In this document: piece by piece, positions 16,184-60,003 of the stretch
Position numbering within the stretch: position 1 is the first letter of the stretch
Layout of the letters: the number at the start of each line of letters is the position of its first letter
DNA from: Rhodobacterales bacterium HTCC2255
GTDB lineage: Bacteria; Pseudomonadota; Alphaproteobacteria; Rhodobacterales; Rhodobacteraceae
Direction: 5' to 3'
Length of the DNA: 64,000 nt
Assembly (NCBI GenBank): GCA_000153745.1
Contig: DS022282.1
Span: forward strand, 2,164,783-2,228,782
Notes under the pieces: generated by a model
Databases searched by the model: none
The model's input: the letters and a program-made list of their open reading frames with translations, nothing else
What the model was told of the DNA's origin: nothing
Position numbers and translations under genes: made by a program

Positions 16184-17557
16184 AATAGCAGCGGCTAATC
16201 CTAAAAATGCAAAAAACCCAACTATATCAGTTACTGTAGTTACTAAAGCACTCGAACCTAATGCAGGATCTAAATTAAATTTATCGAGTAACAATGGCAC
16301 CAAAATTCCAGCTAGTCCTGCCATTAATAAATTCAAAATCATCGCCATAGCCAATACAGCTCCTAACATTGGAAAACCATACCAATAGTACCCAATCAGA
16401 CCAATAATGATTGCAAAAATTAACCCATTTAACAATCCAACTATTGCTTCACGCCTGATGACCCGCCATGCATTTGCGGATGTTAAATCTTTTGTAGCTA
16501 GTGCTCGAACGGCAACAGTTAAAGTTTGCGTTCCAGCATTACCCCCCATAGAAGCTACAATTGGCATTAAAACTGCAAGAGCAACAATAGCTTCAATAGT
16601 TGATGAGAATTGAGCAATAACAATTGATGCTAAAATTGATGTTAGTAAATTAAACCCCAACCATGGGAACCTTTGTCTGACAGTAACAAATATAGTATCA
16701 GTCAGACTTTCATCTCCAACACCACCAAGTAGCTTAATATCTTCATCAGCTTCATCACCTAAAACCTCCATAGCATCATCCATAGTAATAACACCAACCA
16801 AACGGTTTTCGTCATCGACAACTGGGGCAGAGACCATATTATATTGATTAAATGCGTATGCTACGTCTTCTTGAGATTGCGTTACTGGAATTGTTCTAAA
16901 TTCATCATCAACCAATTCTATCAATGGAATTGACCGTCGCGCACGTAAAAGAGTAGACAATGTAACTTTTCCAATAGGTTTGGACATAGGATCAACGACA
17001 ACAACATCATAAAATTGAGCAGGTAAATTTTTACTTTTTCTCAAATTATCAATTGTCTGACCCACGTTCCAATGCGTTGGTGCCATAACTAACTCTCTAG
17101 CCATTAACCGACCCGCAGTTCCTTCTGGGTATTTTAATGAATTTAGTACAGCAATTTGGTCAACTGCATCTAATGCTTCGATGATACGGCTTTGTTCATC
17201 TTTTTCTAAATCTTCAACTAAATCAACAACATCATCTGTTTCTAAATCTTTTAATACTGACGAAACAACTTCATCTGGCATTTCTTCAATTAGATCACCA
17301 GAAAGCCCCTCATCCATTTCTGCAAATACTTCCCCATCCATTTCTTTGCCCCAAAGCTCTATTAGGGCAGATCGACTATTAGGATTTATTTGCTCAAAAA
17401 GGTCAGCAATATCAGCAGCATGGTATTCATTTAACAACGCAATCAGACCACGTTTATTTTGAGATTCAATAAACGAAAGAACGTTATCTACTAAAGTAGA
17501 ATCCATTTCATAGGCGCGATCTGTAAATTCTTTTTCGTTTTCTAGATTCTGATCCAT
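16175..17557 (-). CDS. mgtE: Magnesium transporter MgtE
   Basis: A 460-residue Mg2+ channel/transporter. Its domains in order are the acidic MgtE N-domain (about 20-135, EMPDEVVSSVLKDLETDDVVDLVEDL), a pair of CBS domains (about 140-260) that close the gate when Mg2+ is high, and five membrane helices. The pore signature MGGNAGTQTLTVAVRALA is intact. ATG 17557 has GAGG at suitable distance; a TTG four codons earlier is less likely. Length is normal for the family. Confidence 0.95.
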   Translation of the reverse strand: MDQNLENEKEFTDRAYEMDSTLVDNVLSFIESQNKRGLIALLNEYHAADIADLFEQINPNSRSALIELWGKEMDGEVFAEMDEGLSGDLIEEMPDEVVSSVLKDLETDDVVDLVEDLEKDEQSRIIEALDAVDQIAVLNSLKYPEGTAGRLMARELVMAPTHWNVGQTIDNLRKSKNLPAQFYDVVVVDPMSKPIGKVTLSTLLRARRSIPLIELVDDEFRTIPVTQSQEDVAYAFNQYNMVSAPVVDDENRLVGVITMDDAMEVLGDEADEDIKLLGGVGDESLTDTIFVTVRQRFPWLGFNLLTSILASIVIAQFSSTIEAIVALAVLMPIVASMGGNAGTQTLTVAVRALATKDLTSANAWRVIRREAIVGLLNGLIFAIIIGLIGYYWYGFPMLGAVLAMAMILNLLMAGLAGILVPLLLDKFNLDPALGSSALVTTVTDIVGFFAFLGLAAAILL

Positions 17558-37038: not shown

Positions 37039-39009
37039 ATGGCCGCTAAAGAAGATAGTTCAAAAAAAGGTGAAGTTAACGAAGGCATGGGCGATATGAG
37101 CCAAGCTGCAGTTAAAAAGATGATCGCAGTTGCTCGCGAACGAGGCTACATAACGTATGATGAGCTTAACGATGTAATGCCACCAGACCAGGTTGCTTCA
37201 GAACAGATAGAAGACGTAATGTCTATGCTTTCTGAAATGGGTATAAATATTATTGAAGCCGATGAAGTTGAAGACGAAGGCCCAACAGATGTAACTGTTG
37301 TTGCTAACGACGCTAAAGAAGTGACTTTAGCTGCAACAGGCAAAGAAACCTTAGACAGAACTGATGATCCTGTTCGCATGTACCTGAGAGAAATGGGTTC
37401 AGTAGAATTATTGTCTCGCGAAGGTGAGATTGCCATAGCAAAAAGAATTGAAGCTGGGCGTAAAACAATGATTGAAGGGTTATGTGAAAGCCCCTTAACA
37501 TTCCAAGCTATTACAATCTGGCGCGATGAACTTTTAGAGGAAGAAATTCTTCTTCGTGATGTGATCGATCTAGAGACTACATTTAGTGACACGCTAGATG
37601 ATGATGAAGATCCAATGGTTGGCCCTCTTACTGGAGCTCCAAAACCTTCATCTTCGCCAGCCCACGAATTAGATGCTGATGGCAATCGCTTAAATGATGA
37701 TGAAGATGAAGATGAAGATGAAGATGATGCTGCAAATATTTCTCTTGCAGCAATGGAAGAAACACTTAAGCCAGATGTTCTAGCCACATTAGCAAAAATA
37801 GCTAAAGATTATAATAAATTGGCAAGTATGCAGGATGAAAGAATATCTGCAACTATTAATGAAGATGATACATTCTCTGATAAATCAGAAAAATCATACC
37901 AGAAATTACGCAATAGTCTTGTTGAACAAGTGAACGCATTGCATTTTCATAACAATCGAATTGATGCTCTTATCGACCAACTTTATGGGATAAACAGAAA
38001 AATTATGTCTATCGATTCAGGCATGGTTAAAATAGCTGACCAATCTCGTATCAATCGACGCGAATTTGTTGATAAATACCGTGGTCAAGAATTAGACCCT
38101 ATGTGGTTGGATAAGATAGCTGAAAATGAAGATGGACGTGGTTGGAAAACTTTCATTGAAAAACACCGTGAAAAAGCTGAAGAACTACGAGCTGATATGG
38201 CACAAGTTGGCCATTATGTTGGTGTAGACATTCCAGAATTTCGAAGAATTGTTAATCAGGTTCAAAAAGGCGAAAAAGAAGCACGAAGTGCTAAAAAAGA
38301 AATGGTCGAAGCAAATTTGCGCTTGGTTATCTCAATTGCGAAAAAATACACAAATCGTGGATTGCAATTCTTGGATTTGATTCAAGAAGGTAATATTGGA
38401 CTCATGAAAGCTGTTGATAAATTTGAGTACCGCCGCGGTTATAAATTTAGCACTTATGCTACATGGTGGATCAGACAAGCAATAACTCGTTCAATTGCAG
38501 ACCAAGCACGTACTATTCGTATTCCTGTTCACATGATTGAAACAATTAATAAGTTGGTACGAACAGGTCGCCAAATGCTACATGAAATTGGACGTGAACC
38601 CACGCCTGAAGAGTTAGCTTCAAAGCTACAAATGCCTTTGGATAAAGTCCGTAAGGTAATGAAAATAGCAAAAGAGCCCATCTCATTAGAAACACCAATT
38701 GGGGACGAAGAAGACTCTCAATTAGGTGATTTCATAGAAGACAAAAATGCTATTTTACCATTGGAATCTGCAATCCAAGGAAACCTCAAAGAAACTACTA
38801 CAAGGGTATTAGCCTCACTTACTCCTCGAGAAGAGCGCGTATTACGCATGCGATTTGGCATTGGAATGAACACAGACCATACGCTTGAAGAAGTTGGACA
38901 ACAATTTAGCGTCACAAGAGAACGTATTCGACAGATTGAAGCAAAAGCTTTGAGGAAATTAAAACATCCAAGTCGTAGCCGAAAATTAAGAAGTTTCTTA
39001 GATCAATAA
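37039..39009 (+). CDS. rpoD: RNA polymerase sigma factor RpoD (sigma-70)
   Basis: A 656-residue housekeeping sigma factor. Domains in order: region 1.1 (about 20-90), region 1.2 ([22 protein letters not shown]), a long non-conserved region with an Asp/Glu run encoded by GATGAA repeats (37690-37730), region 2 ([35 protein letters not shown]), region 3, and region 4 with the helix-turn-helix [23 protein letters not shown] lies 6 bases before the ATG. A strong terminator follows. Confidence 0.97.
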
Positions 39010-39010
39010 A

Positions 39011-39035
39011 TTAAAGGCGCTAACTGCGCCTTTAA
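39011..39035. terminator. Terminator after rpoD
   Basis: A perfect 10-bp stem, TTAAAGGCGC (39011-39020) with GCGCCTTTAA (39026-39035), around TAACT. It begins one base after the rpoD stop, and the stop codon of the convergent DUF302 gene lies within it, so it can serve both strands. Confidence 0.85.
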
Positions 39036-39463
39036 AAGTCCAAGGCTTGGCTTATTATATCAGTTAACAGTTCATGGACCATTTGCATTGGGCCATCAGG
39101 ATAACTTCGATGCCCAATATGCACACCATTATCGTTCTCAAAAACAAAAATATTATATGGACAATGGGCAATGTTTAGAGGGTTAGCTTCCATGACTTTT
39201 CTAGAAATTGCAGCTGAACAAAACAAAAAGATATCAGCAGATTTAAAAATTTCTATATCTGAACCAACATCGTTTGCAGTTCGTGAAAGCATATCACCTG
39301 TATGACTGATATGATCGATAACAAGACCCTTACCTAATATTGCACCTTCAACACTAAATGTCGCGTCATCAAAAGTACCCTCATAATTATATAAAATAGC
39401 AGTTTGAGCTTTTACAATACTAGCAAAAAAAACCGAAACAGCGAATAAGATCAAAAATCGCAT
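39032..39463 (-). CDS. Secreted DUF302-like protein of the sox locus
   Basis: A 143-residue protein with a Sec signal (MRFLILFAVSVFFASIVKAQ). The mature part has the DUF302 pattern: FDDATFSVEGAILGKGLVI near the start, a central IFLFCSA with one Cys, and a final CPYNIFVFENDNG. DUF302 proteins often accompany sulfur and redox clusters; the function is unknown. It is divergent from soxC with a 193-base gap containing a SoxR-type palindrome, so it is probably co-regulated. Confidence 0.75.
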   Translation of the reverse strand: MRFLILFAVSVFFASIVKAQTAILYNYEGTFDDATFSVEGAILGKGLVIDHISHTGDMLSRTANDVGSDIEIFKSADIFLFCSAAISRKVMEANPLNIAHCPYNIFVFENDNGVHIGHRSYPDGPMQMVHELLTDIISQALDF

Positions 39464-39572
39464 AATTAACTTCCTATAAATATAATGAACACTTACAATG
39501 ATTAGCACTTAAGCATTTTTATCACTAATTTATATTATCTAATATACAATAAAAAATTTAATGAAATGTTAT

Positions 39573-39588
39573 ATTCAATAATATGAAT
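39573..39588. promoter_or_regulatory. ATTC-N8-GAAT site 1 (candidate SoxR operator) upstream of soxC
   Basis: The sequence is ATTCAATAATATGAAT. It lies 68 bases before the soxC ATG and 109 bases from the DUF302 start, in the gap between those divergent genes. It shares the exact half-sites and spacing with two other sites in the locus. Confidence 0.7.
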
Positions 39589-39656
39589 TTAATATTGTTA
39601 AATCTATATTATATGATAACATAAGCTTGAATTAATTCCGAAAGGACTTCTTAGCG

Positions 39657-40931
39657 ATGAGTAATAATAAAAAAGCACCGTCACGTCGTGCATTTTTAAG
39701 CGGCTCAGCAGCTGCAATAACAGGCACCTTAGCATCTGCCTCAACTGCGAATGAAGCCGATCCATTAATCACCAATGTCCAAGATTGGGCATCTTTCACT
39801 GGAGATGGTGTTGATGAAACACCATATGGTTTACCAATAGAATTTGAAAATGATGTTATTAGACGAAATGTACCTTGGTTAACTGCTGGCCCGATTTCAT
39901 CAATAAATTTTACACCAATACATGCCTTAGAAGGCACCATTACACCACAAGGCTGTGCTTTTGAGCGCCACCATTCAGGTGCAATTGAATTACAAAAGAA
40001 AGACTACAGGCTAATGATTAATGGGTTAGTAGATAACCCACTTATTTTTACCTATGAAGATCTTGAAAGATTTCCAAGACAAAATCATGTCTACTTTTGT
40101 GAATGTGCTGCTAATACTGGTATGGAATGGGCTGGGGCACAATTAAATGGAGCACAGTTTACTCATGGAATGATTCATAACATGGAGTATACAGGTGTAC
40201 CTTTGAGATTATTATTAAATGAAGCAGGTTTAAATAAAGCACAGGATCTAAAAGATAAATGGGTTTATGTTGAGGGTGCTGATGCTTCATCCAACGGACG
40301 CTCAATTCCAATGGAAAAAGCACTTGATGACGTTTTAGTAGCCTTTAAAGCGAATGGCGAGGCACTTAGAAAAGAACATGGTTACCCCGTACGTCTTGTT
40401 GTTCCAGGTTGGGAAGGCAACATGTGGGTAAAATGGATCCGAAGAATAGAAGTATCCGATACTCCTGTTGAAAGTAGGGAGGAAACATCTAAATATACAG
40501 ATGTGTTAGCAAACGGCATCGCACGAAAATGGACTTGGGTAATGGATGCCAAATCTATTATAACATCTCCTAGCCCGCAGAAACCAGTTACACATGGAAA
40601 TGGTCCTTTAGTAATATCGGGATTAGCTTGGTCAGGTCATGGAAAAATCACAAGAGTTGATATCTCTAAAGATGGTGGAATTACATGGGAAACAGCACGC
40701 CTAGGCAATCAAAGTGAAACGAAAGCACTAACACGATTTTACTTAGATACTGAATGGAGCGGCGAAGAATGGCTTCTCCAGGCACGAGCAATTGATGAAA
40801 CAGGTTATATTCAACCTACCAAACATCAACTCCGTGAAATTCGAGGTGAAAACTCTGTTTATCATAATAATTGCATACAAACATGGAATTTAAAAGCTAC
40901 AGGTGAGGTCGAAAATGTTGAAGTATCTTAG
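39657..40931 (+). CDS. soxC: Sulfite dehydrogenase molybdenum subunit SoxC
   Basis: SoxC carries the molybdenum cofactor of the SoxCD sulfane dehydrogenase, which removes six electrons from the sulfane sulfur bound to SoxY in the periplasm. The 424-residue protein has a Tat signal (SRRAFLSG, about 9-16), the sulfite-oxidase Mo domain with the ligand Cys in FCECAANTG, and a C-terminal dimerisation domain. AAAGGA precedes the ATG. The soxD start overlaps its end, so SoxC and SoxD are coupled. Its direction is opposite to soxXYZAB. Confidence 0.96.
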   Translation: MSNNKKAPSRRAFLSGSAAAITGTLASASTANEADPLITNVQDWASFTGDGVDETPYGLPIEFENDVIRRNVPWLTAGPISSINFTPIHALEGTITPQGCAFERHHSGAIELQKKDYRLMINGLVDNPLIFTYEDLERFPRQNHVYFCECAANTGMEWAGAQLNGAQFTHGMIHNMEYTGVPLRLLLNEAGLNKAQDLKDKWVYVEGADASSNGRSIPMEKALDDVLVAFKANGEALRKEHGYPVRLVVPGWEGNMWVKWIRRIEVSDTPVESREETSKYTDVLANGIARKWTWVMDAKSIITSPSPQKPVTHGNGPLVISGLAWSGHGKITRVDISKDGGITWETARLGNQSETKALTRFYLDTEWSGEEWLLQARAIDETGYIQPTKHQLREIRGENSVYHNNCIQTWNLKATGEVENVEVS

Positions 40932-41928
40932 CTTAATAATAGTGAGTATTCTGGCAACAACACCAATTTTTGCTGACAGTAAGCTTGGTTTAGGAAGAAC
41001 CGCATTGCCGTCTGAAATTACTGCATGGGATGTTGATATTTTACCTGATGGCCGTGGTTTACCTGTTGGAAATGGCGACGCTATAGTAGGCGAGGAGACC
41101 TTTGCCAACAAATGTGCATCTTGTCATGGTGACTTTGCTGAAGGTGTTGGTAACTGGCCAGCACTTGCTGGAGGATTTGATACTCTAGCAGATGAAGATC
41201 CTGTTAAGACAGTTGGATCTTATTGGCCATATCTTTCAACACTTTGGGACTATATAAATAGATCAATGCCATTTGGGGGAGCTCAAACTCTTACAAGTGA
41301 TGAAGTTTATTCAATAGTTGCCTACATACTATACTCAAATGATTTAATCGAAGATGATTTCGTGTTGAACGAAAAGAATTTTCAAGAATTTAATATGTAC
41401 AATAGTAACGGTTTTATTATTGATGATAGGAAAATTAGCGAATATCCAATTTGGTCAAAAGAGCCATGTATGGAAAATTGTAAAAAATCTACATCAATAA
41501 CTAAGCGTGCAAGTATTATTGATGTTACTCCCGAAGAAACTTCTACTGAAGTGGAGATAAAACAATCTGCGTTGAGTCCAGTCGAAAAAGATACGGCTTC
41601 TATTGATCCCAAATTAATAAATGCTGGGAAAAAAGTATTCAAAAAATGTAAAGCCTGCCATGCAGTTGGTGAAGGCGCTAAAAATAAATCAGGGCCTCAA
41701 TTATATGAAATTATTGGTCGCAAAATGGGCACGGCAAATAGATATAAATACTCAAAGGGCTTTAAAGTAGCTGCAGAAGAAGGTCGAATCTGGACTGAAG
41801 AACTCATGGTTGAATTCTTAAGAAAACCAAAAAAATTCATCAAAGGCACTAAAATGTCTTTTGGTGGACTGAAGAAAGATAAAGACTTAAACGCAATTGT
41901 AGCTTACTTAAAAACACAAGATAATTAA
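40915..41928 (+). CDS. soxD: Sulfane dehydrogenase diheme cytochrome SoxD
   Basis: A 337-residue periplasmic cytochrome c, electron-accepting partner of SoxC. Sec signal at about 1-20 (ending IFAD). Two class I heme domains: CASCH at 67-71 and CKACH at 245-249, with Met314 as a likely axial ligand of the second. The linker (about 180-235) is low-complexity and acidic. It overlaps the end of soxC by 17 bases from ATG 40915; a GTG lies four codons earlier. It converges on soxB. Confidence 0.94.
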   Translation: MLKYLSLIIVSILATTPIFADSKLGLGRTALPSEITAWDVDILPDGRGLPVGNGDAIVGEETFANKCASCHGDFAEGVGNWPALAGGFDTLADEDPVKTVGSYWPYLSTLWDYINRSMPFGGAQTLTSDEVYSIVAYILYSNDLIEDDFVLNEKNFQEFNMYNSNGFIIDDRKISEYPIWSKEPCMENCKKSTSITKRASIIDVTPEETSTEVEIKQSALSPVEKDTASIDPKLINAGKKVFKKCKACHAVGEGAKNKSGPQLYEIIGRKMGTANRYKYSKGFKVAAEEGRIWTEELMVEFLRKPKKFIKGTKMSFGGLKKDKDLNAIVAYLKTQDN

Positions 41929-41975
41929 TTTAATTTAAAAATAAAATTATGTGTAATTAAAAATAATTAAAATAT

Positions 41976-43658
41976 TTATATTCCTGAAACTTTTACAGAA
42001 GTGTTTGGGTCTATACTCACAGATTCTTGCTTTTTGATCCAACTCTCGGCAACATCCCAAATTGCTGGGCCTTCAGTATTTTCATTAACTGAAGCCCATC
42101 CTGCAACTTGGTAAGATTTATTTGCTTCAACTTTTTCACCAGTTTTAAGAATTGTCATATCTGTTATTCTTGAACCTTGAGGCTTTGATACATCAATTGA
42201 ATAGCCCATACCACCAACTCTAACCATATCGCCTCCTTGTTGATAATATGGATCAGGATTAAATAGGTTATCAGCTACATCTTCTAAAATTACATGTAAG
42301 AATTCACCAGTCATTTCCGTTCTATATGCCTCTGGATAAGACATTGCAGTGGCATTAAATAAGTCTTCACGGGTAATATCTTGACCCGGCAACAAACTAG
42401 GTCCCCATCTAAAACCTGGCGATAGGGCAATGTCAGCTTCGCGTTCATCTATTAATGCATTGCATAGTAAATCATCCCAAGTACCATTAAAATTTCCACG
42501 TCTATATAACTCTTGATCAGTAGTGCCTAAAACCTCTTTTAGCTGATCTGAAAATGGTGCTCTTTGTTCATCTATTAACGCTCTTACATATGGATCAGGG
42601 GCAATAACATCACTGAAAATTGGAATTAATTTGTGGGAGAACCCTTTCACTTCACCTTCCCTAACATCTAAATCTAATCGAGTTACAAATTTTCCATTTG
42701 AACCAGAAGCAATTAACATTGTTGAACCCACTAAGACGGGTTCTGGCAATGCATCGTGGGTGTGCCCTGTAAGAATAACATCGATACCATTCACTCGACT
42801 TGCTAATTTTCTATCTACATCAAATCCATTATGAGATAATAAAACCACAAGTTCTGCACCCAAAGCCTGAACTTCATTTACAACTTCAACCATTCTTTCT
42901 TCACGGATTCCAAATGATAGATTTGGGAACATCCATCCAGGATTTGCAATTGGCATATAAGGGAATGCTTGCCCTATTACTGCAATCTTAACTCCGCCTC
43001 GCTCAAACATTTTATAAGGTTCATAAGCTGGCTCTTCCCATTCATTATCAAAAATGTTTGCCCCCAAAAATGGAAAGTCTAAGGAATCTACAATTTCAGT
43101 CACTCGATCAATACCCAATGTGAATTCCCAATGAGATGTCATGGCATCAGGCTTCAAAGCATTCATAACATTTACCATATCTTGACCTTGGGTGTGATGC
43201 GTCGTGTAAGATCCTTGCCAAGTATCACCGCCATCAAGCAGTAATGCATCTGGTCTATCTGAACGGATTGAATTTATTACAGTTGCAACACGATCTAATC
43301 CACCCATTCGACCATAGGTTTTTGCAAGTGCGCTAAAATCATTATAAGTAAGTGCATAGGCTTCTGGTGTTCCAGGCGTCATATTAAATAAATTTAAAAA
43401 ATCTTTACCAGTCACATGTGGTGGCAAGCCATTTACAGAACCGATGCCTAAATTTATCTCTGGTTCACGAAAGTAAACAGGATTCAATTGTCCATGAATA
43501 TCAGTAATATGAATTAATGTTACATTACCAGTAGTATCAAATTTTAAGAGTTCATTTTGAGATAAACTTTGCTGGGCTGATGCTCGAGTAAAGCCCCCTG
43601 CACCGTAAATAGCAGATGCAGCAACAGTTGCTTGTAAAAAATCACGTCGTGAAATCAT
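41976..43658 (-). CDS. soxB: Thiosulfohydrolase SoxB
   Basis: A dinuclear Mn enzyme that hydrolytically releases sulfate from SoxY-bound thiosulfonate. Metallophosphoesterase motifs: HITDIHGQLNP, DGGDTWQGS, the SoxB-specific TSHWEFT, LSHNG and GHTHD, then a 5'-nucleotidase C-terminal domain. It has 560 residues from ATG 43658, which has GAGGG 8 bases upstream and opens a Tat signal MISRRDFLQ. The frame continues upstream but runs into a hairpin and a palindrome, so I reject the longer form. It is separated from soxA by that hairpin. Confidence 0.96.
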   Translation of the reverse strand: MISRRDFLQATVAASAIYGAGGFTRASAQQSLSQNELLKFDTTGNVTLIHITDIHGQLNPVYFREPEINLGIGSVNGLPPHVTGKDFLNLFNMTPGTPEAYALTYNDFSALAKTYGRMGGLDRVATVINSIRSDRPDALLLDGGDTWQGSYTTHHTQGQDMVNVMNALKPDAMTSHWEFTLGIDRVTEIVDSLDFPFLGANIFDNEWEEPAYEPYKMFERGGVKIAVIGQAFPYMPIANPGWMFPNLSFGIREERMVEVVNEVQALGAELVVLLSHNGFDVDRKLASRVNGIDVILTGHTHDALPEPVLVGSTMLIASGSNGKFVTRLDLDVREGEVKGFSHKLIPIFSDVIAPDPYVRALIDEQRAPFSDQLKEVLGTTDQELYRRGNFNGTWDDLLCNALIDEREADIALSPGFRWGPSLLPGQDITREDLFNATAMSYPEAYRTEMTGEFLHVILEDVADNLFNPDPYYQQGGDMVRVGGMGYSIDVSKPQGSRITDMTILKTGEKVEANKSYQVAGWASVNENTEGPAIWDVAESWIKKQESVSIDPNTSVKVSGI

Positions 43659-43673
43659 ATCAAAATCCCTCAT

Positions 43674-43689
43674 ATTCATTATTTTGAAT
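43674..43689. promoter_or_regulatory. ATTC-N8-GAAT site 2 (candidate SoxR operator) upstream of soxB
   Basis: The sequence is ATTCATTATTTTGAAT. It lies 15 bases upstream of the soxB ATG, between the soxA terminator-like hairpin and the soxB ribosome site. This suggests that soxB has its own repressible promoter. Confidence 0.65.
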
Positions 43690-43705
43690 GTTATAAAATA
43701 AATAA

Positions 43706-43733
43706 ACCCCACAACGAATTAACATTGTGGGGT
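43706..43733 (-). terminator. Terminator-like hairpin between soxA and soxB
   Basis: A perfect 9-bp stem, ACCCCACAA (43706-43714) with TTGTGGGGT (43725-43733). On the minus strand it begins 13 bases after the soxA stop and is followed by TTATTTATTTT, as in an intrinsic terminator. It would end or reduce transcription before soxB. Confidence 0.75.
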
Positions 43734-43746
43734 AAAAAACTTAAAC

Positions 43747-44592
43747 TTAGTTACGTACTGATGGGCTTTCCACTGATAGACCATTTCCTCTAGATGCAAC
43801 ATAAAGCTCTAGAGCACGAAATTCGTCTGAACCTTCTTTAAAAGGTGTCGCTCTAATATTTTTCATACAACCTTTGAAGCGCGCATGAATAGAATTCATT
43901 TTGGCATTCTTTAACCTGTATGTTGGAAAACCATTTATTTGCCCTTGAGAAAGGTGGTCAGCACGTATCATGTTACCATAGTTATCTTCATGACAATTTG
44001 CACATGACATATCCAATTGACCAACTCTCGTGTAATACAACTCTTTACCTAAATCATATGCACCAGCAGCTTCACCATCTGTTTTAACATTTATTGGCAT
44101 GCCACGAGATTGTAATGAAATTAATGATGTCATGGCAGTCATCTTACCTTTTGACCATTTCCAAGGCTCAGCACCCATTCTCTCAGTGCGGCAATCATTT
44201 ACTAATGTTTCCATTGTATCTAATTTTCCAGTTGTTGCATTATGTCGAGGCAGTGTTGACTTTAAACCTTCAAATGATGCTACATCTTCATGACATGATG
44301 CACATGACTTACCCTCAGATCCATCGACTTTTGCATATAGATCTTCGCCTTGTTCAATAAATATAAACGATGGGTTATCAAAATCATCCATTTGCAATGC
44401 TTGAGTTTCATTAGTTCTAAAACGCCAGCCAGATATCAATTCATCTAATGCACTATCAGCGGGTGCTGCAGCCTTAGTTGATATGTTTAGATCTCCGTTT
44501 ATTACCAACTCAGCGTCTTCATCAGCAATTGCCACTGTTGTGATAGTAGACAAAGCCAAAATACATGTCAGAGTTCTTGTGAACTTCTTCAT
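43747..44592 (-). CDS. soxA: L-cysteine S-thiosulfotransferase SoxA, diheme
   Basis: SoxA with SoxX attaches thiosulfate to the SoxY swinging-arm cysteine. The 281-residue protein has a Sec signal (MKKFTRTLTCILALSTITTVAIA). Two c-type hemes: CASCH 97-101 and CANCH 197-201; the likely distal ligand is C134, and the active-site cysteine ligand is C242 in RFKGCM. This is the diheme form known from Paracoccus and Rhodovulum. ATG 44592 opens the signal peptide; longer readings overlap soxZ. Confidence 0.96.
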   Translation of the reverse strand: MKKFTRTLTCILALSTITTVAIADEDAELVINGDLNISTKAAAPADSALDELISGWRFRTNETQALQMDDFDNPSFIFIEQGEDLYAKVDGSEGKSCASCHEDVASFEGLKSTLPRHNATTGKLDTMETLVNDCRTERMGAEPWKWSKGKMTAMTSLISLQSRGMPINVKTDGEAAGAYDLGKELYYTRVGQLDMSCANCHEDNYGNMIRADHLSQGQINGFPTYRLKNAKMNSIHARFKGCMKNIRATPFKEGSDEFRALELYVASRGNGLSVESPSVRN

Positions 44593-44617
44593 TATAGTAT
44601 CCTCCCTTTTTTGCGCA

Positions 44618-44938
44618 TTAAGCGACAGTAATGGTTTTTGTTTGTTCAACAGTTGAACCATCATCATCAGTCCATTTCATCACTAGATCACCAGTGGCTG
44701 GTACATTAAAACTAAATTGAAAATATGGATTTGTTGAGATTGCAGGTTCAAACTTTGCAGATACAACTTCCTCACCCCCAAACGTTGCTGAGAATGCATT
44801 GATAATTTTACGAGGAATTAAGTTTCCATCACCATCCTTACGACGGCCAGATTCCATTTTATGATTAACTAATGTTTTGATTGTCACCAATTCTCCTGCT
44901 GCTGCAGTTTTTGGTGCTTTTACACGTGCTTTTGCCAT
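44618..44938 (-). CDS. soxZ: Thiosulfate oxidation carrier SoxZ
   Basis: A 106-residue immunoglobulin-like partner of SoxY. Typical features are the start KARVKAPKTAAAGELVTIKTLVNHKMESG and the strand end KWTDDDGSTVEQTKTI. It has no signal peptide, as expected, since SoxZ rides out of the cell with Tat-exported SoxY. It lies 18 bases after soxY. Confidence 0.96.
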   Translation of the reverse strand: MAKARVKAPKTAAAGELVTIKTLVNHKMESGRRKDGDGNLIPRKIINAFSATFGGEEVVSAKFEPAISTNPYFQFSFNVPATGDLVMKWTDDDGSTVEQTKTITVA

Positions 44939-44956
44939 GTGAACTCTCCTTTTCTG

Positions 44957-45379
44957 CTAGCCGCCGCAGCCGCCAATTGTTACTTTTACTGTTTTTGCTA
45001 CTTGAGCGTATGATCCATCAGCCATTTCAGCTACTGCAATTACTTCTTGTGTTCCAGCAAGGCGAATTCTGGTTGAACCAGATGCATCACTTAATTTTCC
45101 AAAATTAAATGTTCCAACTCCAGGAGTTGGGTTTCCATCAGCTAACAACATCACACGTTTTGCTCCAGGTGCAGAGAACTGTACTGGTACAGTATTTCCA
45201 TTTTCTGCAATTTCTGGAGTTGTTAGATTAATACCACCATCACTTACAGCGGCTCCATTAGTAAATGCGTTAATAACAGCCATTGTTTCATCTTTTGCTG
45301 CAAATGCATTTAGAGGCATGAGTGTTACAACAAATGATGCTGAACCTAATGCTAAAGCATTTCTACGAGTTAATGACAT
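44957..45379 (-). CDS. soxY: Sulfur carrier protein SoxY
   Basis: The carrier on which all intermediates are bound. 140 residues with a Tat signal (TRRNALALGSASF) and the diagnostic C-terminal swinging arm GGCGG (136-140), whose C138 binds the sulfur chain. It starts 3 bases after the soxX stop, so it is coupled to it. Confidence 0.97.
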   Translation of the reverse strand: MSLTRRNALALGSASFVVTLMPLNAFAAKDETMAVINAFTNGAAVSDGGINLTTPEIAENGNTVPVQFSAPGAKRVMLLADGNPTPGVGTFNFGKLSDASGSTRIRLAGTQEVIAVAEMADGSYAQVAKTVKVTIGGCGG

Positions 45380-45382
45380 TCT

Positions 45383-45841
45383 CTACTCCTCTTTTAATGT
45401 TAATATATATGCCACAACATCTTCAACTTGTTGTGCTGATAAAATTGTTTTACCGACAAATTTCTTTAATGTTCTCACACCATTTTGCGTACTGTAAAAT
45501 GCTGGCATTATTGTTCCTTCAAAGGTATTTTTTGAATTTACAACAATTCCTCTTAACTCTTCTTCACTCCAACGAGAACCTGCACCATTCAATTCAGGGC
45601 CAACTTCTCCGTGAAAAGATTGAGCTGATGCGTCATCATTGACATGACAGGCCAAACAATTACCTAGCTTACGATTTGTTGAAACTTTTTTCCCTGCGAC
45701 TGGATCACCAGCAACACCAGTAAGTGAGCCCGAAATTCCCCCATACTCTCCAAACGATACGTCAGTTGGTGAAATGTCTCCAGCAATAACGGATGTGGAT
45801 ATTAACGTTGCCGAAACGGCAATAAGACTGCGAAGCAGCAT
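45383..45841 (-). CDS. soxX: Monoheme cytochrome SoxX
   Basis: The electron-accepting partner of SoxA. 152 residues with a Sec signal (about 1-21, ending VIAG). One class I heme: CLACH at 62-66 with the axial Met112 in TIMPAFYS. It heads the soxXYZA transcript; GGAGGAAAT lies before the ATG. An ATTC-N8-GAAT palindrome lies 68 bases upstream of its start. Confidence 0.95.
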   Translation of the reverse strand: MLLRSLIAVSATLISTSVIAGDISPTDVSFGEYGGISGSLTGVAGDPVAGKKVSTNRKLGNCLACHVNDDASAQSFHGEVGPELNGAGSRWSEEELRGIVVNSKNTFEGTIMPAFYSTQNGVRTLKKFVGKTILSAQQVEDVVAYILTLKEE

Positions 45842-45895
45842 ATGATTTCCTCCCTAATCCTTAAATTCTATAGATAGGTTAGTCGTATAAACTGA

Positions 45896-45907
45896 GTCTT
45901 GCAAGAC
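45896..45907. promoter_or_regulatory. Palindrome GTCTTGCAAGAC upstream of soxX
   Basis: A perfect 12-bp dyad, two bases from the ATTC-N8-GAAT site on the soxX side. On the minus strand a TTGCAA within it could serve as a -35 element with a weak TAACCT 17 bases on. It could be a second regulator site. Confidence 0.35.
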
Positions 45908-45909
45908 AA

Positions 45910-45925
45910 ATTCTATTTTTTGAAT
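45910..45925. promoter_or_regulatory. ATTC-N8-GAAT site 3 (candidate SoxR operator) upstream of soxX
   Basis: The sequence is ATTCTATTTTTTGAAT; the dyad extends to six bases per arm (AAATTC/GAATTT). It lies in the 124-base soxW-soxX gap, where Paracoccus and Pseudaminobacter have a SoxR operator by established work, as I recall. Confidence 0.75.
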
Positions 45926-45965
45926 TTATTTAGTAAAATGTTCCAACTTATGGGTTAGAATTAAA

Positions 45966-46523
45966 TTATTTTTTTTGTTCAGCAAATTTTCTGGCATGAT
46001 ATTTTTGGAAGTGTTCACCACTATTATAACCCTTTTCCAAAACATAATTTAATAAATTTTTAGTAGTATATTTACCAAATGCACCAGGCATTGTAATGAC
46101 TGCATTTTGTGAAGCAGATTTCATTAAATCGATATTTTCTGGCATAAACATAAGTGTAGGAGTAAAAACCACACCCCAAGCTTTGGCGATTTCCTTCTCA
46201 GTCATTACATTACCATTGAAGTCAATAACTTCATTATCACCAAATAAATTCAGTTGAACGACAAAGTAATCTTCTGAAAGGATTTTGTCTATTTCATGGT
46301 TGGGATAAACATCTTCATGCATTTTAGTACAATAAATACACCCTCTTTGTTCAAACATTATTAACAAACGCTTGCCTTCTGAGCTTGCTTCTTCAAAATC
46401 TTCAGCCATATCATTAAATGTAAATCTTAACCAATCAGGCTTGTGAAGACCATCATCACCAAGTGGGGCAGCATTTGCAGAGCCTACAAAAACAAAAATT
46501 AGAAATAATATAATTTTTTTCAT
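45966..46523 (-). CDS. soxW: Periplasmic thioredoxin SoxW
   Basis: A 185-residue thioredoxin-fold protein with a Sec signal (about 1-19) and redox pair C62/C65 in GCIYC. SoxW takes electrons from SoxV and keeps periplasmic Sox thiols, notably on SoxY, reduced. It lies 9 bases after soxV. The thioredoxin domain is of the YyaL/DUF255-like type (RLLIMFEQRGCIYCTKMHED) rather than TlpA. Confidence 0.88.
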   Translation of the reverse strand: MKKIILFLIFVFVGSANAAPLGDDGLHKPDWLRFTFNDMAEDFEEASSEGKRLLIMFEQRGCIYCTKMHEDVYPNHEIDKILSEDYFVVQLNLFGDNEVIDFNGNVMTEKEIAKAWGVVFTPTLMFMPENIDLMKSASQNAVITMPGAFGKYTTKNLLNYVLEKGYNSGEHFQKYHARKFAEQKK

Positions 46524-46532
46524 TGCTTCTAT

Positions 46533-47270
46533 CTATCCTATTAATGAGAACCAGGGTACATATTCTATCATTATATTTGCTAAATAATTTACGCTGTTAG
46601 TTGCTATTAATACTGCAAAAATAATTAACATCACACCCATAATTTTTTCAACATATGCAATATAATTACTATTTCGCTGAATCCAACGTAAAAATGGTTT
46701 GGCAAAAGTTGCCGCTAAAACAAAGGGCAAAGTCATCGACAGGCCATAAACTAATAATAACAATGTTCCTTGAAATGTATCACCCATCCCTCCAGCAATC
46801 ATAAGAATTGATGCCAGCGCAGGACCAACACATGGCGTCCATCCAAAGCCAAATGCCAAACCCATTACATAAGATCCTACCAAAGTTGAAGAATCTGCTT
46901 TTGAAGTTATTTTTGTCTCCCTATAAAATAATCCCACACGAATGACTCCAAGAAAATGTAACCCAAAAGCAAATAAAAATGCAGCTGCGAAGTATGACAA
47001 TTCTTGCTTCCAAACTCTTAACATCTGCCCCAAAAATGATGCACCTAAGCCTAAAAATACAAAAATTGTGGTTGTACCCAGAGCGAAAAACACACTAGCC
47101 AAAATAAGTTTACGATGTGTGCCAGATGGAATCTCTTCAGAATTCCTTAATTCATTCATGCTTATTCCTGCAAGATAGCATAAATAAAACGGCACCATCG
47201 GAAGAATGCATGGAGACAAGAAACTTAAAAGTCCGGCAATAATTGCGCCCGTATATGTTATGTCTAACAT
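46533..47270 (-). CDS. soxV: CcdA/DsbD-like membrane thiol transporter SoxV
   Basis: A 245-residue protein with six membrane helices; its two redox cysteines are in LSFLSPCILPMVPFY (helix 1) and FGWTPCVGPAL (helix 4). It moves reducing equivalents from cytoplasmic thioredoxin to SoxW. By fold it is a CcdA protein; the sox context supports SoxV. It is divergent from soxS with a 65-base gap. Confidence 0.93.
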   Translation of the reverse strand: MLDITYTGAIIAGLLSFLSPCILPMVPFYLCYLAGISMNELRNSEEIPSGTHRKLILASVFFALGTTTIFVFLGLGASFLGQMLRVWKQELSYFAAAFLFAFGLHFLGVIRVGLFYRETKITSKADSSTLVGSYVMGLAFGFGWTPCVGPALASILMIAGGMGDTFQGTLLLLVYGLSMTLPFVLAATFAKPFLRWIQRNSNYIAYVEKIMGVMLIIFAVLIATNSVNYLANIMIEYVPWFSLIG

Positions 47271-47335
47271 CTAAAGCCTTGTCCTTTGAATTAAAACACA
47301 TTACATTTTTGATATATGTTAAGAAGGTATCTGAA

Positions 47336-47707
47336 ATGAAGTCAATGCTATTAGCGGCAATATTATATTTTATTGCAAATATGACTTTGGCTCAAAGCAT
47401 CAAATTATTAATGTTTGAGCAAGATGGTTGCTACTGGTGCGAAATCTGGGATGATGAAATATCAGAAATTTACCCAAAAACTTTAGAAGGGCATGTTGCC
47501 CCGCTACATAGAATTAATATTCATTCAAAACAATCAAATGAGATTATTTTAAATAGCACTCCACAATTTACACCTACATTTATAATAATTAATAATAACA
47601 AAGAAGTTGGCCGCATCGAAGGTTACCCTGGCGATGATTTTTTCTGGGCACTTATTGACAAAATTTTATCAAAAATTCCTGAATACTCTCAAAAGAAAGG
47701 TGCATGA
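47336..47707 (+). CDS. soxS: Thioredoxin-like SoxS
   Basis: A 123-residue periplasmic thioredoxin with a Sec signal (about 1-19, ending TLAQ). The redox pair C32/C35 sits in GCYWCEIWDDEI, the SoxS signature. In Paracoccus SoxS keeps SoxY active by reducing mixed disulfides. ATG 47336 opens the signal peptide; an upstream in-frame start would run into soxV. Its stop overlaps the next gene's ATG. Confidence 0.9.
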   Translation: MKSMLLAAILYFIANMTLAQSIKLLMFEQDGCYWCEIWDDEISEIYPKTLEGHVAPLHRINIHSKQSNEIILNSTPQFTPTFIIINNNKEVGRIEGYPGDDFFWALIDKILSKIPEYSQKKGA

Positions 47708-48210
47708 TGAAAAAAATTATTTTACTAATTATTCTAGGCATTATCCCAACATTCTTTGTACAAGCAGCTGAAGATGATGCATTTGTTGAATTTAAAGTTC
47801 TAAAGCCAGAGATAGCCATAAAAGCTGCGATCTCAGCTATGAATTTTTGCCAAGATGAGGGCTATCAAGTAGGTGTGAGTGTAGTAGACAGATTTGGTCT
47901 TACACAAGCATTCATCAAATCTCGATACGCAGGGTTACATGTTCAAGAAACGGCAACGCGCAAAGCTTGGACTTCAGTAAGCTTTAGAACGCCAACATTG
48001 TCTCTTGATGAGAGTACACAACCAGGAAAAGAAGCGTTTGGAATAAGATTTATATCTACGCCACTTCCATTAGGTGGTGGTGTGCCAATTGAAGCAGAGG
48101 GTTCCATTGTTGCAGGAATTGGAGTATCTGGAGCACCAGGTACTGATATAGACGATGAATGTGCAAGGGCAGGAATTGCCGCAATTGAAGATGATTTGTT
48201 AGGATTTTAA
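47704..48210 (+). CDS. Secreted GlcG/HbpS-like protein (DUF336)
   Basis: A 168-residue protein with a Sec signal (about 1-22). The mature domain is of the GlcG/HbpS fold: repeated helices with VSVVDRFGLTQAF, ending in PIEAEGSIVAGIGVSGAPGTDIDDECARAGI. Relatives bind heme or act as accessory redox sensors. It lies between soxS (4-base overlap) and soxR (1-base gap), so it is made with them. Its role in thiosulfate metabolism is not established. Confidence 0.85.
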   Translation: MMKKIILLIILGIIPTFFVQAAEDDAFVEFKVLKPEIAIKAAISAMNFCQDEGYQVGVSVVDRFGLTQAFIKSRYAGLHVQETATRKAWTSVSFRTPTLSLDESTQPGKEAFGIRFISTPLPLGGGVPIEAEGSIVAGIGVSGAPGTDIDDECARAGIAAIEDDLLGF

Positions 48211-48211
48211 T

Positions 48212-48544
48212 ATGAAATTGGCTGAAGAACTATCTAGTAAATTTGACATTGACGAAATGTTTGAAAAAGGCCGTGGAGCTGCAAACTTTCTTAAAGCTAT
48301 GGCGCATGAAGGTCGCCTAATGATACTTTGTCATTTAGTTATGGGCGAAAAATCAGTCACAGAACTAGAGAACTTGTTGTCCTCACGACAAGCCGCAGTA
48401 AGCCAACAGCTCGCTCGATTACGTATCGAGGGAATCGTTAGCTTTAGAAGAGATGGAAAAGCAATTTATTACTCAATCAAAGATGAGAAAGTACTTAAGC
48501 TGGTATCCCTCTTGTACGAGGAATTCTGCGCAAAAGATAATTAA
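48212..48544 (+). CDS. soxR: ArsR-family sulfur-responsive repressor SoxR
   Basis: A 110-residue ArsR-fold dimeric repressor. Winged helix-turn-helix at about 45-85 (SVTELENLLSSRQAAVSQQLARLR). Two cysteines, C40 in MILCHLV and C106 in EEFCAKDN, occupy the places of the redox pair in SoxR, SqrR and BigR, which form a polysulfide bridge and release DNA. This supports persulfide sensing rather than metal sensing. Three matching operator-like palindromes lie in the locus. Confidence 0.92.
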   Translation: MKLAEELSSKFDIDEMFEKGRGAANFLKAMAHEGRLMILCHLVMGEKSVTELENLLSSRQAAVSQQLARLRIEGIVSFRRDGKAIYYSIKDEKVLKLVSLLYEEFCAKDN

Positions 48545-48553
48545 GGCCCCTAT

Positions 48554-49588
48554 ATGGAACCCACAGCACTTGCTACTTTATTAGGCCTTGGTACAGGAAT
48601 TGTTTTGGGGTTAGCCGCAAGATTGGGGCAGTTTTGTACATTTGGAGCCATTGAAAGTGCTTATCTAGGGAATGACCAGCGCCGCATACGCCTTTGGGGC
48701 TTAGTCTTAGGTACTGCAATTATTACAATTTATGGCTTAGATTTTCTTGGACAATTTAATATTTCTGATACTTCGTATCATAGAATTAATTGGAATCCCA
48801 TTGGAAGTATAATTGGAGGCCTACTATTTGGATATGGCATGGGATTAGCTGGAAACTGTGGGTTTGGTGCACTGGCAAAACTTGCAGGCGGTGATTTAAG
48901 ATCATTGGTTATTTTAATTGTTATGGCTTTGGCAAGTTATTTTATACTGAGCGGACCGTTAGCAAGTCTTAGAATTATTCTCTTTCCTGTCGAAATATCA
49001 ACTGGTAATGCAGGTATTCCATATTTTATTGAATATTTCTTTGGTATTGCACCAATTATTGTTGCTTTGATTATTGGTCTTTTGTTTTGTATCTGGGCAT
49101 TATTATACGCACCACTTCGACAAGATTTCACAATGATTATTTGGTCAGTATTAGCGGGGCTATCAATTACAGCAGCATTTTGGGGAAATTATTCATTAAA
49201 TATAAGCAGCTTGAATGAAATTCCAATACAGAGTCATACATTCACAGCCCCACTTGGAAAAACATTACTGTATATGATGACTTCTTCCAGCAGCACTCTT
49301 AGCTTTCCTATAGGCAGTGTTTTTGGTGTAATTGCTGGTGCCTTTATCGGAAGTAAGATTAAAGGCCACTTTAGATGGGAAGCTTGTGATGATGCCCGCG
49401 AATTAGGGCGCCAAATGTTAGGTGCTGTTTTGATGGGATTTGGTAGTGTAATTGCTATGGGTTGCTCAATTGGCCAAGGAGTTAGTGCATTTTCAACATT
49501 AGCAATTAGTGGCCCGACCACCTTAGCCGCAATAATTATTGGCAGCATCATAGCCATACGGCAAATATTAACTGGGTATCAGCCATAA
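48554..49588 (+). CDS. soxT: YeeE/YedE-family transporter, SoxT-like (1)
   Basis: A 344-residue membrane protein with about nine to ten helices in two related halves. Conserved Cys motifs along the pore: GQFCTFGAIE (near 28), GNCGFGALAKLAGG (near 102), and GCSIGQGVSAFST near the C-terminus. The family includes the thiosulfate importer TsuA and sox-linked SoxT. It starts 9 bases after soxR. Possible roles are thiosulfate import for sensing or sulfur-compound export. Confidence 0.85.
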   Translation: MEPTALATLLGLGTGIVLGLAARLGQFCTFGAIESAYLGNDQRRIRLWGLVLGTAIITIYGLDFLGQFNISDTSYHRINWNPIGSIIGGLLFGYGMGLAGNCGFGALAKLAGGDLRSLVILIVMALASYFILSGPLASLRIILFPVEISTGNAGIPYFIEYFFGIAPIIVALIIGLLFCIWALLYAPLRQDFTMIIWSVLAGLSITAAFWGNYSLNISSLNEIPIQSHTFTAPLGKTLLYMMTSSSSTLSFPIGSVFGVIAGAFIGSKIKGHFRWEACDDARELGRQMLGAVLMGFGSVIAMGCSIGQGVSAFSTLAISGPTTLAAIIIGSIIAIRQILTGYQP

Positions 49589-49788
49589 AATATAAATTTT
49601 ATGAATTTAAGATTTAATTACTTACTTTACAGCCCAGAAGAGCATTTTGTTCCAAAATTATTTTAAATAAGCGATATAGTTCCATAGTCAAGATATTCAA
49701 AAGAACATGGTTTCTTTTAGGCTGGTTGCAAAAAATTTTATTCCATTACAAAGAATATAAAATAGAATTGGCGCACAGGGCAATAAAC

Positions 49789-50841
49789 ATGTTTGAACAA
49801 TTAGGATATGAAAATTTAACCCCAAAAATGGCTTCTGTGATTTTTGCATTGGCTATTGGACTAATATTTGGCTCTGTAAGTCAGCATATAAAATTTTGCT
49901 TCCGACGCAGTATTGTTGGAACTCCACAAGAACGAAAATCCGCTCGTGGAGTATGGTTTGCAGCTTTAGCCTCAGCAACATTAGGCACTCAATTATTGAT
50001 ATTCTATGATTTTTTTTCATTTGCTGAACATCGATTTTTTAATTCAGACATACCGATATTAGCTATAGCAATGGGCGGCATTATGTTTGGCGTTGGAATG
50101 GTGCTAACAAGAGGATGTATTTCGCGGTTAGTAGTTCTAACAGGGTCAGGAAATATTAGAGCTTTAATAGTTTTTGTTATTTTTGCAATTACAGCCCATG
50201 CAACTCTTAAAGGTGTCTTTGCCCCTGTAAGAGTTTGGATAGGATCATTCACTCTAAATTTAGGTGAAATAACTGGATTTTCAGAACTTATTGGCGGACC
50301 GATATTATGGAGTATATTAATTATATTTGTATCAATTTTTATCGCTTATAAATCGAGTTCTAGAATTTCTCATCTAATTTTAGCTATATTCATTGGTTTG
50401 TTAGTTCCATTATCATGGCTTGGAACTGGTTTTATTTTATTTGATGAATTTGATCCTATTCCATTACAGTCTTTATCATTTACTTCCCCAAGTTCAGATT
50501 TGTTATTTTGGTCCATTGCATCAACATCAATTCCAGCTGGGTTTGGAGTTGGCCTAATTGGAGGTGTTATACTAGGTTCATTTACCGCTGCTATATCCAA
50601 GAACGAGTTCCAATGGAGAACTTTCGAGAATCATCAGCAAACTAAACAATATTTACTTGGAGCCGTATTAATGGGTTCAGGAGGAGTGCTCGCTGGAGGT
50701 TGTACGGTTGGTGCAGGACTTGCCGGTATTCCTACATTAAGCTTTGCAGCTATATCAGCATTAATTTGTGTGGTGATTGGTGCTTTGATGACAAAATATA
50801 TCACAAATGTTTTTGTAAATTCTAATTACTCTTATGCTTAA
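49789..50841 (+). CDS. YeeE/YedE-family transporter, SoxT-like (2)
   Basis: A 350-residue paralog of the preceding transporter: the same two-half layout with Cys motifs IKFCFRRSI, TRGCISRLVVLTGSGNIR and GGCTVGAGLAGIP. The ATG at 49789 is preferred to a TTG 21 codons earlier; CAGGG lies upstream. About 200 bases separate it from the first transporter, so it may have its own promoter. It is probably a second importer or exporter of a sulfur species. Confidence 0.83.
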   Translation: MFEQLGYENLTPKMASVIFALAIGLIFGSVSQHIKFCFRRSIVGTPQERKSARGVWFAALASATLGTQLLIFYDFFSFAEHRFFNSDIPILAIAMGGIMFGVGMVLTRGCISRLVVLTGSGNIRALIVFVIFAITAHATLKGVFAPVRVWIGSFTLNLGEITGFSELIGGPILWSILIIFVSIFIAYKSSSRISHLILAIFIGLLVPLSWLGTGFILFDEFDPIPLQSLSFTSPSSDLLFWSIASTSIPAGFGVGLIGGVILGSFTAAISKNEFQWRTFENHQQTKQYLLGAVLMGSGGVLAGGCTVGAGLAGIPTLSFAAISALICVVIGALMTKYITNVFVNSNYSYA

Positions 50842-58037: not shown

Positions 58038-58110
58038 AATTAACTTTCTTAAATATGTACTTAATAGAGTTAATAAAACAGATAATGAATAAATTCAAAT
58101 AATTGAAAAT

Positions 58111-59901: not shown

Positions 59902-60003
59902 ACATTCAGCTTTCGGAATTTACTAATATCGATAGCGCGCAATAGCAAAAGCATCAAGACAACAATCTACACAAAAACAATTTTTTTATTTTTATTAAGA
60001 TTT

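Follow-up and report, generated by a model that had tools for sequence, protein, structure and literature searches.

The sox cluster of Rhodobacterales bacterium HTCC2255 lies within a 64,000-nucleotide stretch of contig DS022282.1 (assembly GCA_000153745.1, positions 2,164,783 to 2,228,782; hereafter the window), and it contains three exact copies of the palindrome ATTC-N8-GAAT, one each before soxC, soxB and soxX. Judging from sequence comparison, these palindromes are very probably the operators of the SqrR/SoxR-type repressor encoded in the same cluster, which would act by the mechanism proposed below and probably also on a soxH-like and a Blh-type gene located elsewhere in the genome. A preliminary description of this DNA had placed the three palindromes at 39573, 43674 and 45910, and all three were confirmed at these positions. 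The system would be of an already known type, a persulfide-relieved SqrR/SoxR-type repressor with predicted operators. What seems to be new is a family-wide map in which soxX has one operator and soxB or soxC a second, in many cases following a terminator, along with soxH-like and Blh-type genes that were probably captured.

Conservation of the palindromes in related sox loci

One hundred loci were compared: the window, 79 of 80 named SoxB loci (L076 was left out because it is on the same contig as L057), and 20 stretches around soxR, taken from the 38 other genomes that matched when 60 relatives were searched. A gap between genes was counted if both neighboring genes were on one strand and 10-700 bases apart, and all counts include the window. 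The exact motif was found in 59 of the 87 soxW-soxX gaps and an extended pattern, ATKC-N8-GMAT, in 66, compared to 0.38 and 0.72 in shuffled gaps. In the soxA-soxB gaps the corresponding numbers were 25 and 59 of 95, with 0.12 and 0.28 in shuffled gaps. Other spacings (5, 6, 7, 9, 10 and 11 bases) occurred 0-2 times in either gap. No pair of loci had soxA, soxB or soxR at least 97% identical. Removing three loci, namely the window together with its nearest relatives L055 and L056, made little difference, with 56 exact and 63 extended matches in 84 soxW-soxX gaps, and 22 and 56 in 92 soxA-soxB gaps. Loci of 36-67% G+C content are among those sharing the site.

In the other gaps of the cluster, the site was found in 9 of 76 soxB-soxC gaps, 3 of 87 soxS-soxV gaps, none of 70 soxR-YeeE gaps and, in the extended form only, 1 of 81 soxS-soxR gaps (exact motif, 0 of 81). 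No site was found in the soxX-soxY, soxY-soxZ and soxZ-soxA gaps (78, 92 and 92 gaps), which are short (32-40 bases), so few sites would be expected there anyway. In the divergent promoter region between soxS and soxV, the window contains a conserved but strongly degenerate 20-mer, ATAT-N8-TAAT. It lies where an operator would be expected, though its weight matrix score of -10.5 makes its status as an operator uncertain; 15 of 87 soxS-soxV regions scored at least 10, and 62% of the regions scored better than 95% of their own shuffles. An exact ATTC-N8-GAAT was also seen upstream of the second YeeE gene in three (L057, L061 and L062) of the eight loci, window included, that have both YeeE genes in place; the window does not have it.

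A weight matrix was built from 120 sites from relatives, excluding the window, L055 and L056. When this matrix was applied to the window, the three sox sites ranked first to third with scores of 20.1-21.3, and the next best score was 15.8. Sixty Markov-resampled windows contained a mean of 0.02 matches scoring at least 20, and never more than one. A sequence model of a 24-base motif, trained on a random draw of 60 of the 120 sites, was used to search the whole 2.30 Mb genome. At E ≤ 10 there were 16 matches, which fell at 11 places, and the soxX, soxB and soxC sites were the first three of these.

The repressor

The preliminary description had named a repressor with cysteines C40 and C106, and this protein was confirmed as SqrR-like by sequence. 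It matched the Pfam family HTH_5, and its best phmmer matches in the PDB were 13ct (E 3.5e-38) and 6o8k (E 1.3e-37), listed as 'Transcriptional regulator, ArsR family', which we take to be SqrR of R. capsulatus. Alignment to these entries showed that C40 and C106 are the aligned cysteine pair and that the recognition helix is nearly identical. Across the aligned loci, window included, all 86 had a cysteine at position 40 and all 83 had one at position 106; of the 80 recognition helices listed, 78 had the core QAAVSQQL. The protein scored 93.7 bits with the BigR equivalog NF040642, below the cut-off of 155.

It is improbable that the sites belong to a regulator other than the neighboring SoxR. 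Among clusters long enough to judge, just one was without soxR, too few to set presence of the operator against absence of the gene, and this leaves some room for another regulator. What speaks for SoxR is that it was the only homolog of its type in the genome at E ≤ 0.001, and that, of the 87 loci having a soxW-soxX gap, 79 had a recognizable soxR, some of the loci being too short to tell. Furthermore, the nearest solved relatives are taken to be SqrR, and the recognition site deduced for R. capsulatus SqrR is ATTC-N8-GAAT (available text of PMC9774250), which supports the earlier assignment of the palindromes as SqrR/SoxR/BigR-type operators.

Position of the predicted operators and a probable separate soxB unit

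In many relatives the soxX operator was followed by TTGTTGTTGC or a close variant of it. Of 74 well-scored soxX operators, 53 had a TTGC or TTGT beginning at the 7th base after GAAT and nine had one beginning at the 6th; a promoter-like pair, TTG...TAnnnT, came after 62 of the 74, compared to 4.6 in shuffles. The soxX operator of the window is likewise followed by this conserved promoter-like stretch, with TTGC at the 6th base; at soxC there is a TTGT at the 7th. From this spacing and the promoter-like pair, the soxX operator appears to be placed just upstream of the -35 region. The soxB operator lies directly before the ribosome-binding region, and so its position would be near the transcription start.

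The preliminary description had given soxB an operator of its own. This part stood, and soxB as a separate unit was supported as well: a hairpin resembling a terminator, with a T-rich tail, lies at 43706-43733, between soxA and the soxB operator. The suggestion that such an operator was something special did not stand, because the soxA-soxB site is shared with the majority of the loci compared above. A GC-rich hairpin was found in 55 of 57 soxA-soxB gaps with an operator and in 36 of 38 without. A hairpin followed by at least four T in the next 8 bases was found in 51 of the 57 gaps with an operator compared to 20 of the 38 without (Fisher p 8e-5, ignoring relatedness), so that many members of the family share this arrangement of a terminator followed by a soxB operator. 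Seohaeicola saemankumensis (L104), Phaeobacter italicus (L118) and Shimia biformata (L128) are examples of relatives with operators at both soxX and soxB. A terminator scan of the region found four terminator-like sites, compared to 6.2 in shuffles, and without such an excess the case for the hairpin is made by its conservation instead. Ten relatives had a well-scored site in the soxB-soxC gap, and seven of these ten lacked a soxA-soxB site (Fisher p 0.03, 76 loci); this alternation is only a lead, because the p value ignores relatedness.

The soxB element, being 15 nucleotides before the start codon and beside the ribosome-binding region, might act in the mRNA as a small hairpin instead of as a DNA operator, but this is very unlikely. 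Of 56 soxA-soxB sites in relatives, 32 have T opposite C in one of the four pairs (position 3 with 14), a mismatch that disrupts the hairpin but leaves the DNA half-sites recognizable. The same palindrome also precedes soxX and soxC, at different distances, and no Rfam family matched at 39000-50000 at gathering scores.

Candidate targets elsewhere in the genome

The regulon had been described as self-contained. This was not borne out, because the fourth and fifth places in the genome-wide model search were outside the sox cluster and preceded sulfur genes, which are probably under the same repressor.

The fourth place was 46 nucleotides upstream of a metallo-beta-lactamase-fold gene that is unlinked to the repressor. 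The readable part of this gene scored 261.9 bits with the Blh sulfur transferase/dioxygenase model, for which the cut-off of 625 applies to the whole protein, and it matched the persulfide dioxygenase ETHE1 in the PDB (E 5e-14), behind closer unnamed relatives. The site was found in 5 of 31 copies of this Blh-type gene, its own copy included, suggesting a clade-level rather than a family-level target. A second well-scored site is located inside the coding part of the gene (G000:C1:1593067-1593082); it is kept in L183 and weaker in L184.

The fifth place was 16 nucleotides upstream of a SoxH-related metallohydrolase gene (TIGR04559, 130 bits; cut-off 280). The site was present in 12 of 19 orthologs of at least 60% identity, own copy included, and in none of five more distant copies. 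In three of these 12 (L220, L221 and L226) the soxH-like gene was between soxW/soxV and soxX, and the site, read by eye, was the soxX operator seen from the other side; the other nine had a site elsewhere. Comparison by eye showed that in six loci (L059, L060, L062, L220, L221 and L226) the soxH-like gene adjoins soxX and points away from it, with a single operator that both genes appear to share.

The other six places comprised three inside genes and three before genes without a recognized link to sulfur. One of the six, a site before pdxJ with the same 16-mer as the soxX site, was kept in one of 10 relatives (L156), and an exact site shortly before a trimethylamine monooxygenase gene (G000:C1:877469-877484) was kept in one of the eight relatives having the gene (L275, the nearest). 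Both are probably due to chance. Upstream of an unlinked pair of YeeE-like and DUF6691 genes (G000:C1:435937-436776) there is a half-degenerate site, ATTC-N8-ATAT. Within the window, an exact site at 59904-59919 lies upstream of an ABC transporter gene and a one-mismatch site at 58093-58108 lies upstream of an acyl-CoA ligase-like gene, both genes being named by reading their translations.

Frequency of the motif and points against the operators

Counting the motif in the window was uninformative. There were five exact copies, the three sox sites plus the one just upstream of the ABC transporter gene and one in coding sequence at 16915, compared to a shuffle mean of 2.57, with at least five in 11 of 100 shuffles. 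Copies with one mismatch numbered 51, and 58.7 were expected. These counts are at the level of chance; the significance of the sites is carried by their position and conservation. All three sox sites have 8-base spacers made up only of A and T; there were 10 such copies in the whole genome, and the seven that were not sox sites consisted of two intergenic and five coding copies.

Several results weigh against reading the palindromes as operators. The motif is not rare in the genome, where the exact pattern occurred 73 times and a reversed control pattern 26 times. Fifteen of the 20 non-coding copies were not beside recognized sulfur genes. The extended pattern was absent from 36 of 95 soxA-soxB and 21 of 87 soxW-soxX gaps, although 8 of the latter 21 still scored at least 10 with the weight matrix and most of the other 13, read by eye, had one intact half-site in the best window. 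The three sox sites had modest E-values in the model search (0.03-0.16), which is normal for a motif of 24 bases, and the argument is therefore carried by ranking and conservation; this search scored 150 of 2262 first-look candidates. A generic sigma-70 scan of the region found 27 sites, compared to 34.0 in shuffles, and was set aside for its lack of excess. With regard to the additional targets, a good site was absent in 26 of the 31 Blh-type copies, and a coding copy at 728962 scored 17.5 by matrix compared to 17.4 for the Blh-type site, making this fourth target less certain than the first three.

The preliminary description had proposed the frequency of the motif in unrelated intergenic regions as a check, and the result was mixed: most of the non-coding copies were away from sulfur genes, as given above, while the five that adjoin sulfur genes include the five best-scoring non-coding copies. 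The three sites might also have arisen by chance, as copies of an A/T-rich 8-letter pattern that is common anyway. In favor of this are the insignificant count in the window, the 73 genomic copies and the distribution of the 72 that were placed: 52 were in coding sequence, 16 were intergenic and 4 were start-proximal, and mechanical open reading frames make up 91% of the stretches concerned. Chance is nevertheless very unlikely, given that dozens of relatives, including loci of widely differing base composition, share the position, spacing and sequence of the sites, and that an independently trained model put the three sites in the first three ranks genome-wide.

Organization of the locus

The whole window is on one contig. 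From left to right, the cluster consists of soxC-soxD on the forward strand; soxV-soxW-soxX-soxY-soxZ-soxA and soxB, given in transcription order, on the reverse strand; and soxS, an HbpS-like gene, soxR and two YeeE-type genes on the forward strand (Table 1). The gene order soxSRT beside a full sox cluster was thus found at 47336-49588, with the HbpS-like gene intervening. This HbpS-like gene (47704-48210) is also present between soxS and soxR in a number of relatives and absent from others. Among the best 80 matches listed, the named relatives of SoxB were mostly from the Rhodobacteraceae or Rhodobacterales, and the nearest was from the metagenome assembly UBA7416.

Table 1. Coordinates in the window of the sox genes, predicted operators and associated features
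Feature	Position	Strand	Remarks
Predicted operator before soxCD	39573..39588	+	ATTCAATAATATGAAT; ends 68 nucleotides (nt) ahead of soxC ATG
soxC	39657..40931	+	sulfite dehydrogenase-type, TIGR04555
soxD	40915..41928	+	two cytochrome c domains; name from position after soxC
soxB	41976..43658	-	thiosulfohydrolase, TIGR04486; start MISRRDF chosen from relatives
Predicted operator before soxB	43674..43689	-	reads ATTCAAAATAATGAAT; 15 nt ahead of soxB ATG, directly upstream of ribosome-binding region
Terminator-like hairpin	43706..43733	-	T-rich tail; between soxA and soxB operator
soxA	43747..44592	-	
soxZ	44618..44938	-	
soxY	44957..45379	-	
soxX	45383..45841	-	
Predicted operator before soxXYZA	45910..45925	-	reads ATTCAAAAAATAGAAT; 68 nt ahead of soxX ATG, then TTGTCTTGC
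soxW-like thioredoxin	45966..46523	-	
soxV / CcdA-type membrane protein	46533..47270	-	DsbD_TM
Operator-like 20-mer, uncertain	47298..47317	-	ATAT-N8-TAAT, strongly degenerate, conserved; soxS-soxV divergent promoter
soxS-like thioredoxin-fold protein	47336..47707	+	Thioredoxin_2, 21.8 bits, under Pfam cut-off of 27
HbpS-like gene	47704..48210	+	between soxS and soxR
soxR	48212..48544	+	ArsR-family SqrR/SoxR-type repressor, C40 and C106
YeeE/SoxT-like sulfur transporter	48554..49588	+	Sulf_transp
Second YeeE/SoxT-like gene	49726..50841	+	assigned by reading translation, without family-library scan

Relative to soxB, soxCD is inverted in the window, L055 and L056, and in these loci it has its own exact site. 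The SoxC protein of the window is 93-95% identical to those of the two nearest relatives, 62% identical to those of the same-genus loci L058 and L068, and 78-80% identical to those of L061, L070 and L074. Perhaps a foreign copy took the place of soxCD at the time of the inversion. One record titled Oceanobacillus sp. HTM 045 (L097) contains a Rhodobacteraceae-like sox cluster and is probably mislabelled or contaminated.

Proposed mechanism

In cells without oxidizable sulfur, a SoxR dimer would sit on each ATTC/GAAT pair and block the promoters of soxXYZA, soxB and soxCD. Thiosulfate or sulfide would raise the level of cellular persulfide or polysulfide, perhaps by way of the YeeE/SoxT-type transporter. 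C40 and C106 would then become bridged by sulfur, SoxR would release the DNA, and the three units would be transcribed. The terminator after soxA would separate soxB from the soxX promoter, which on this proposal is the reason that soxB has an operator. For this organism the binding of SoxR, the sulfur chemistry, the termination and the direction of control are inferred, the mechanism being taken by extension from the available text of studies on SoxR and SoxT of H. denitrificans and SqrR of R. capsulatus (PMC10451225, PMC11582611, PMC9774250).

A more speculative extension, of which we are doubtful, is that the sox clusters of the Rhodobacteraceae are two-step switches. There would be one SoxR operator upstream of the soxX -35 region and a second behind a terminator at soxB or, in other lineages, before soxC, and the positions and affinities of these operators might release SoxXYZA, SoxB and SoxCD at different persulfide levels. 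If so, loading of the carrier would precede the hydrolase and dehydrogenase steps or take place separately from them, and soxH-like and persulfide dioxygenase genes would have joined the regulon by gaining the same site.

The Rhodobacteraceae are an important group of marine sulfur oxidizers, and the analysis provides a concrete map of the predicted operators through which SoxR would control thiosulfate oxidation in this family. The general statement that SoxR binds sox promoters is turned into predictions at the level of single bases, which include the half-sites, their spacing and a second operator at soxB or soxC, and two further genes in this genome, those for the soxH-like hydrolase and the Blh-type persulfide dioxygenase, are named as probable targets.

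Comparison with known systems

Related repressors have been studied in several species, and the statements here refer to the available text of the sources. DNA binding by SqrR was lowered in its tetrasulfide form (PMC9995734). SoxR of H. denitrificans binds sox promoter fragments, polysulfide prevents this binding, and the two cysteines become sulfur-bridged (PMC10451225); a SoxT-type transporter has a role in signaling to SoxR in the same organism (PMC11582611). E. coli YgaV binds a katG fragment that does not contain ATTC-N8-GAAT (PMC9774250). The letters ATTC or GAAT were absent from the main texts of PMC10451225 and PMC12423496, and no literature describing a SoxR operator specific to soxB, or mapping ATTC-N8-GAAT in sox clusters across the family, was found in a search for which most subscription journals were outside coverage.

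The repressor of the window shares with R. capsulatus SqrR the ArsR family, the aligned cysteine pair, the near-identical recognition helix and the deduced operator (PMC9774250). Unlike SqrR, which controls sqr and a rhodanese gene among the sulfide-responsive genes (PMC9995734), it has its predicted sites in front of sox units. Like the BigR/Blh operon, the system has a repressor of the same family and a Blh-type gene as a probable extra target, but the repressor scores below the BigR cut-off and the Blh-type gene is not linked to it. In gene order (soxS-soxR-soxT), in having a repressor of sox promoters and in its two sensing cysteines, the system resembles those of SoxR in Paracoccus, Pseudaminobacter and Hyphomicrobium (PMC10451225, PMC11582611), and it differs from them in that soxB and soxCD have predicted operators of their own.

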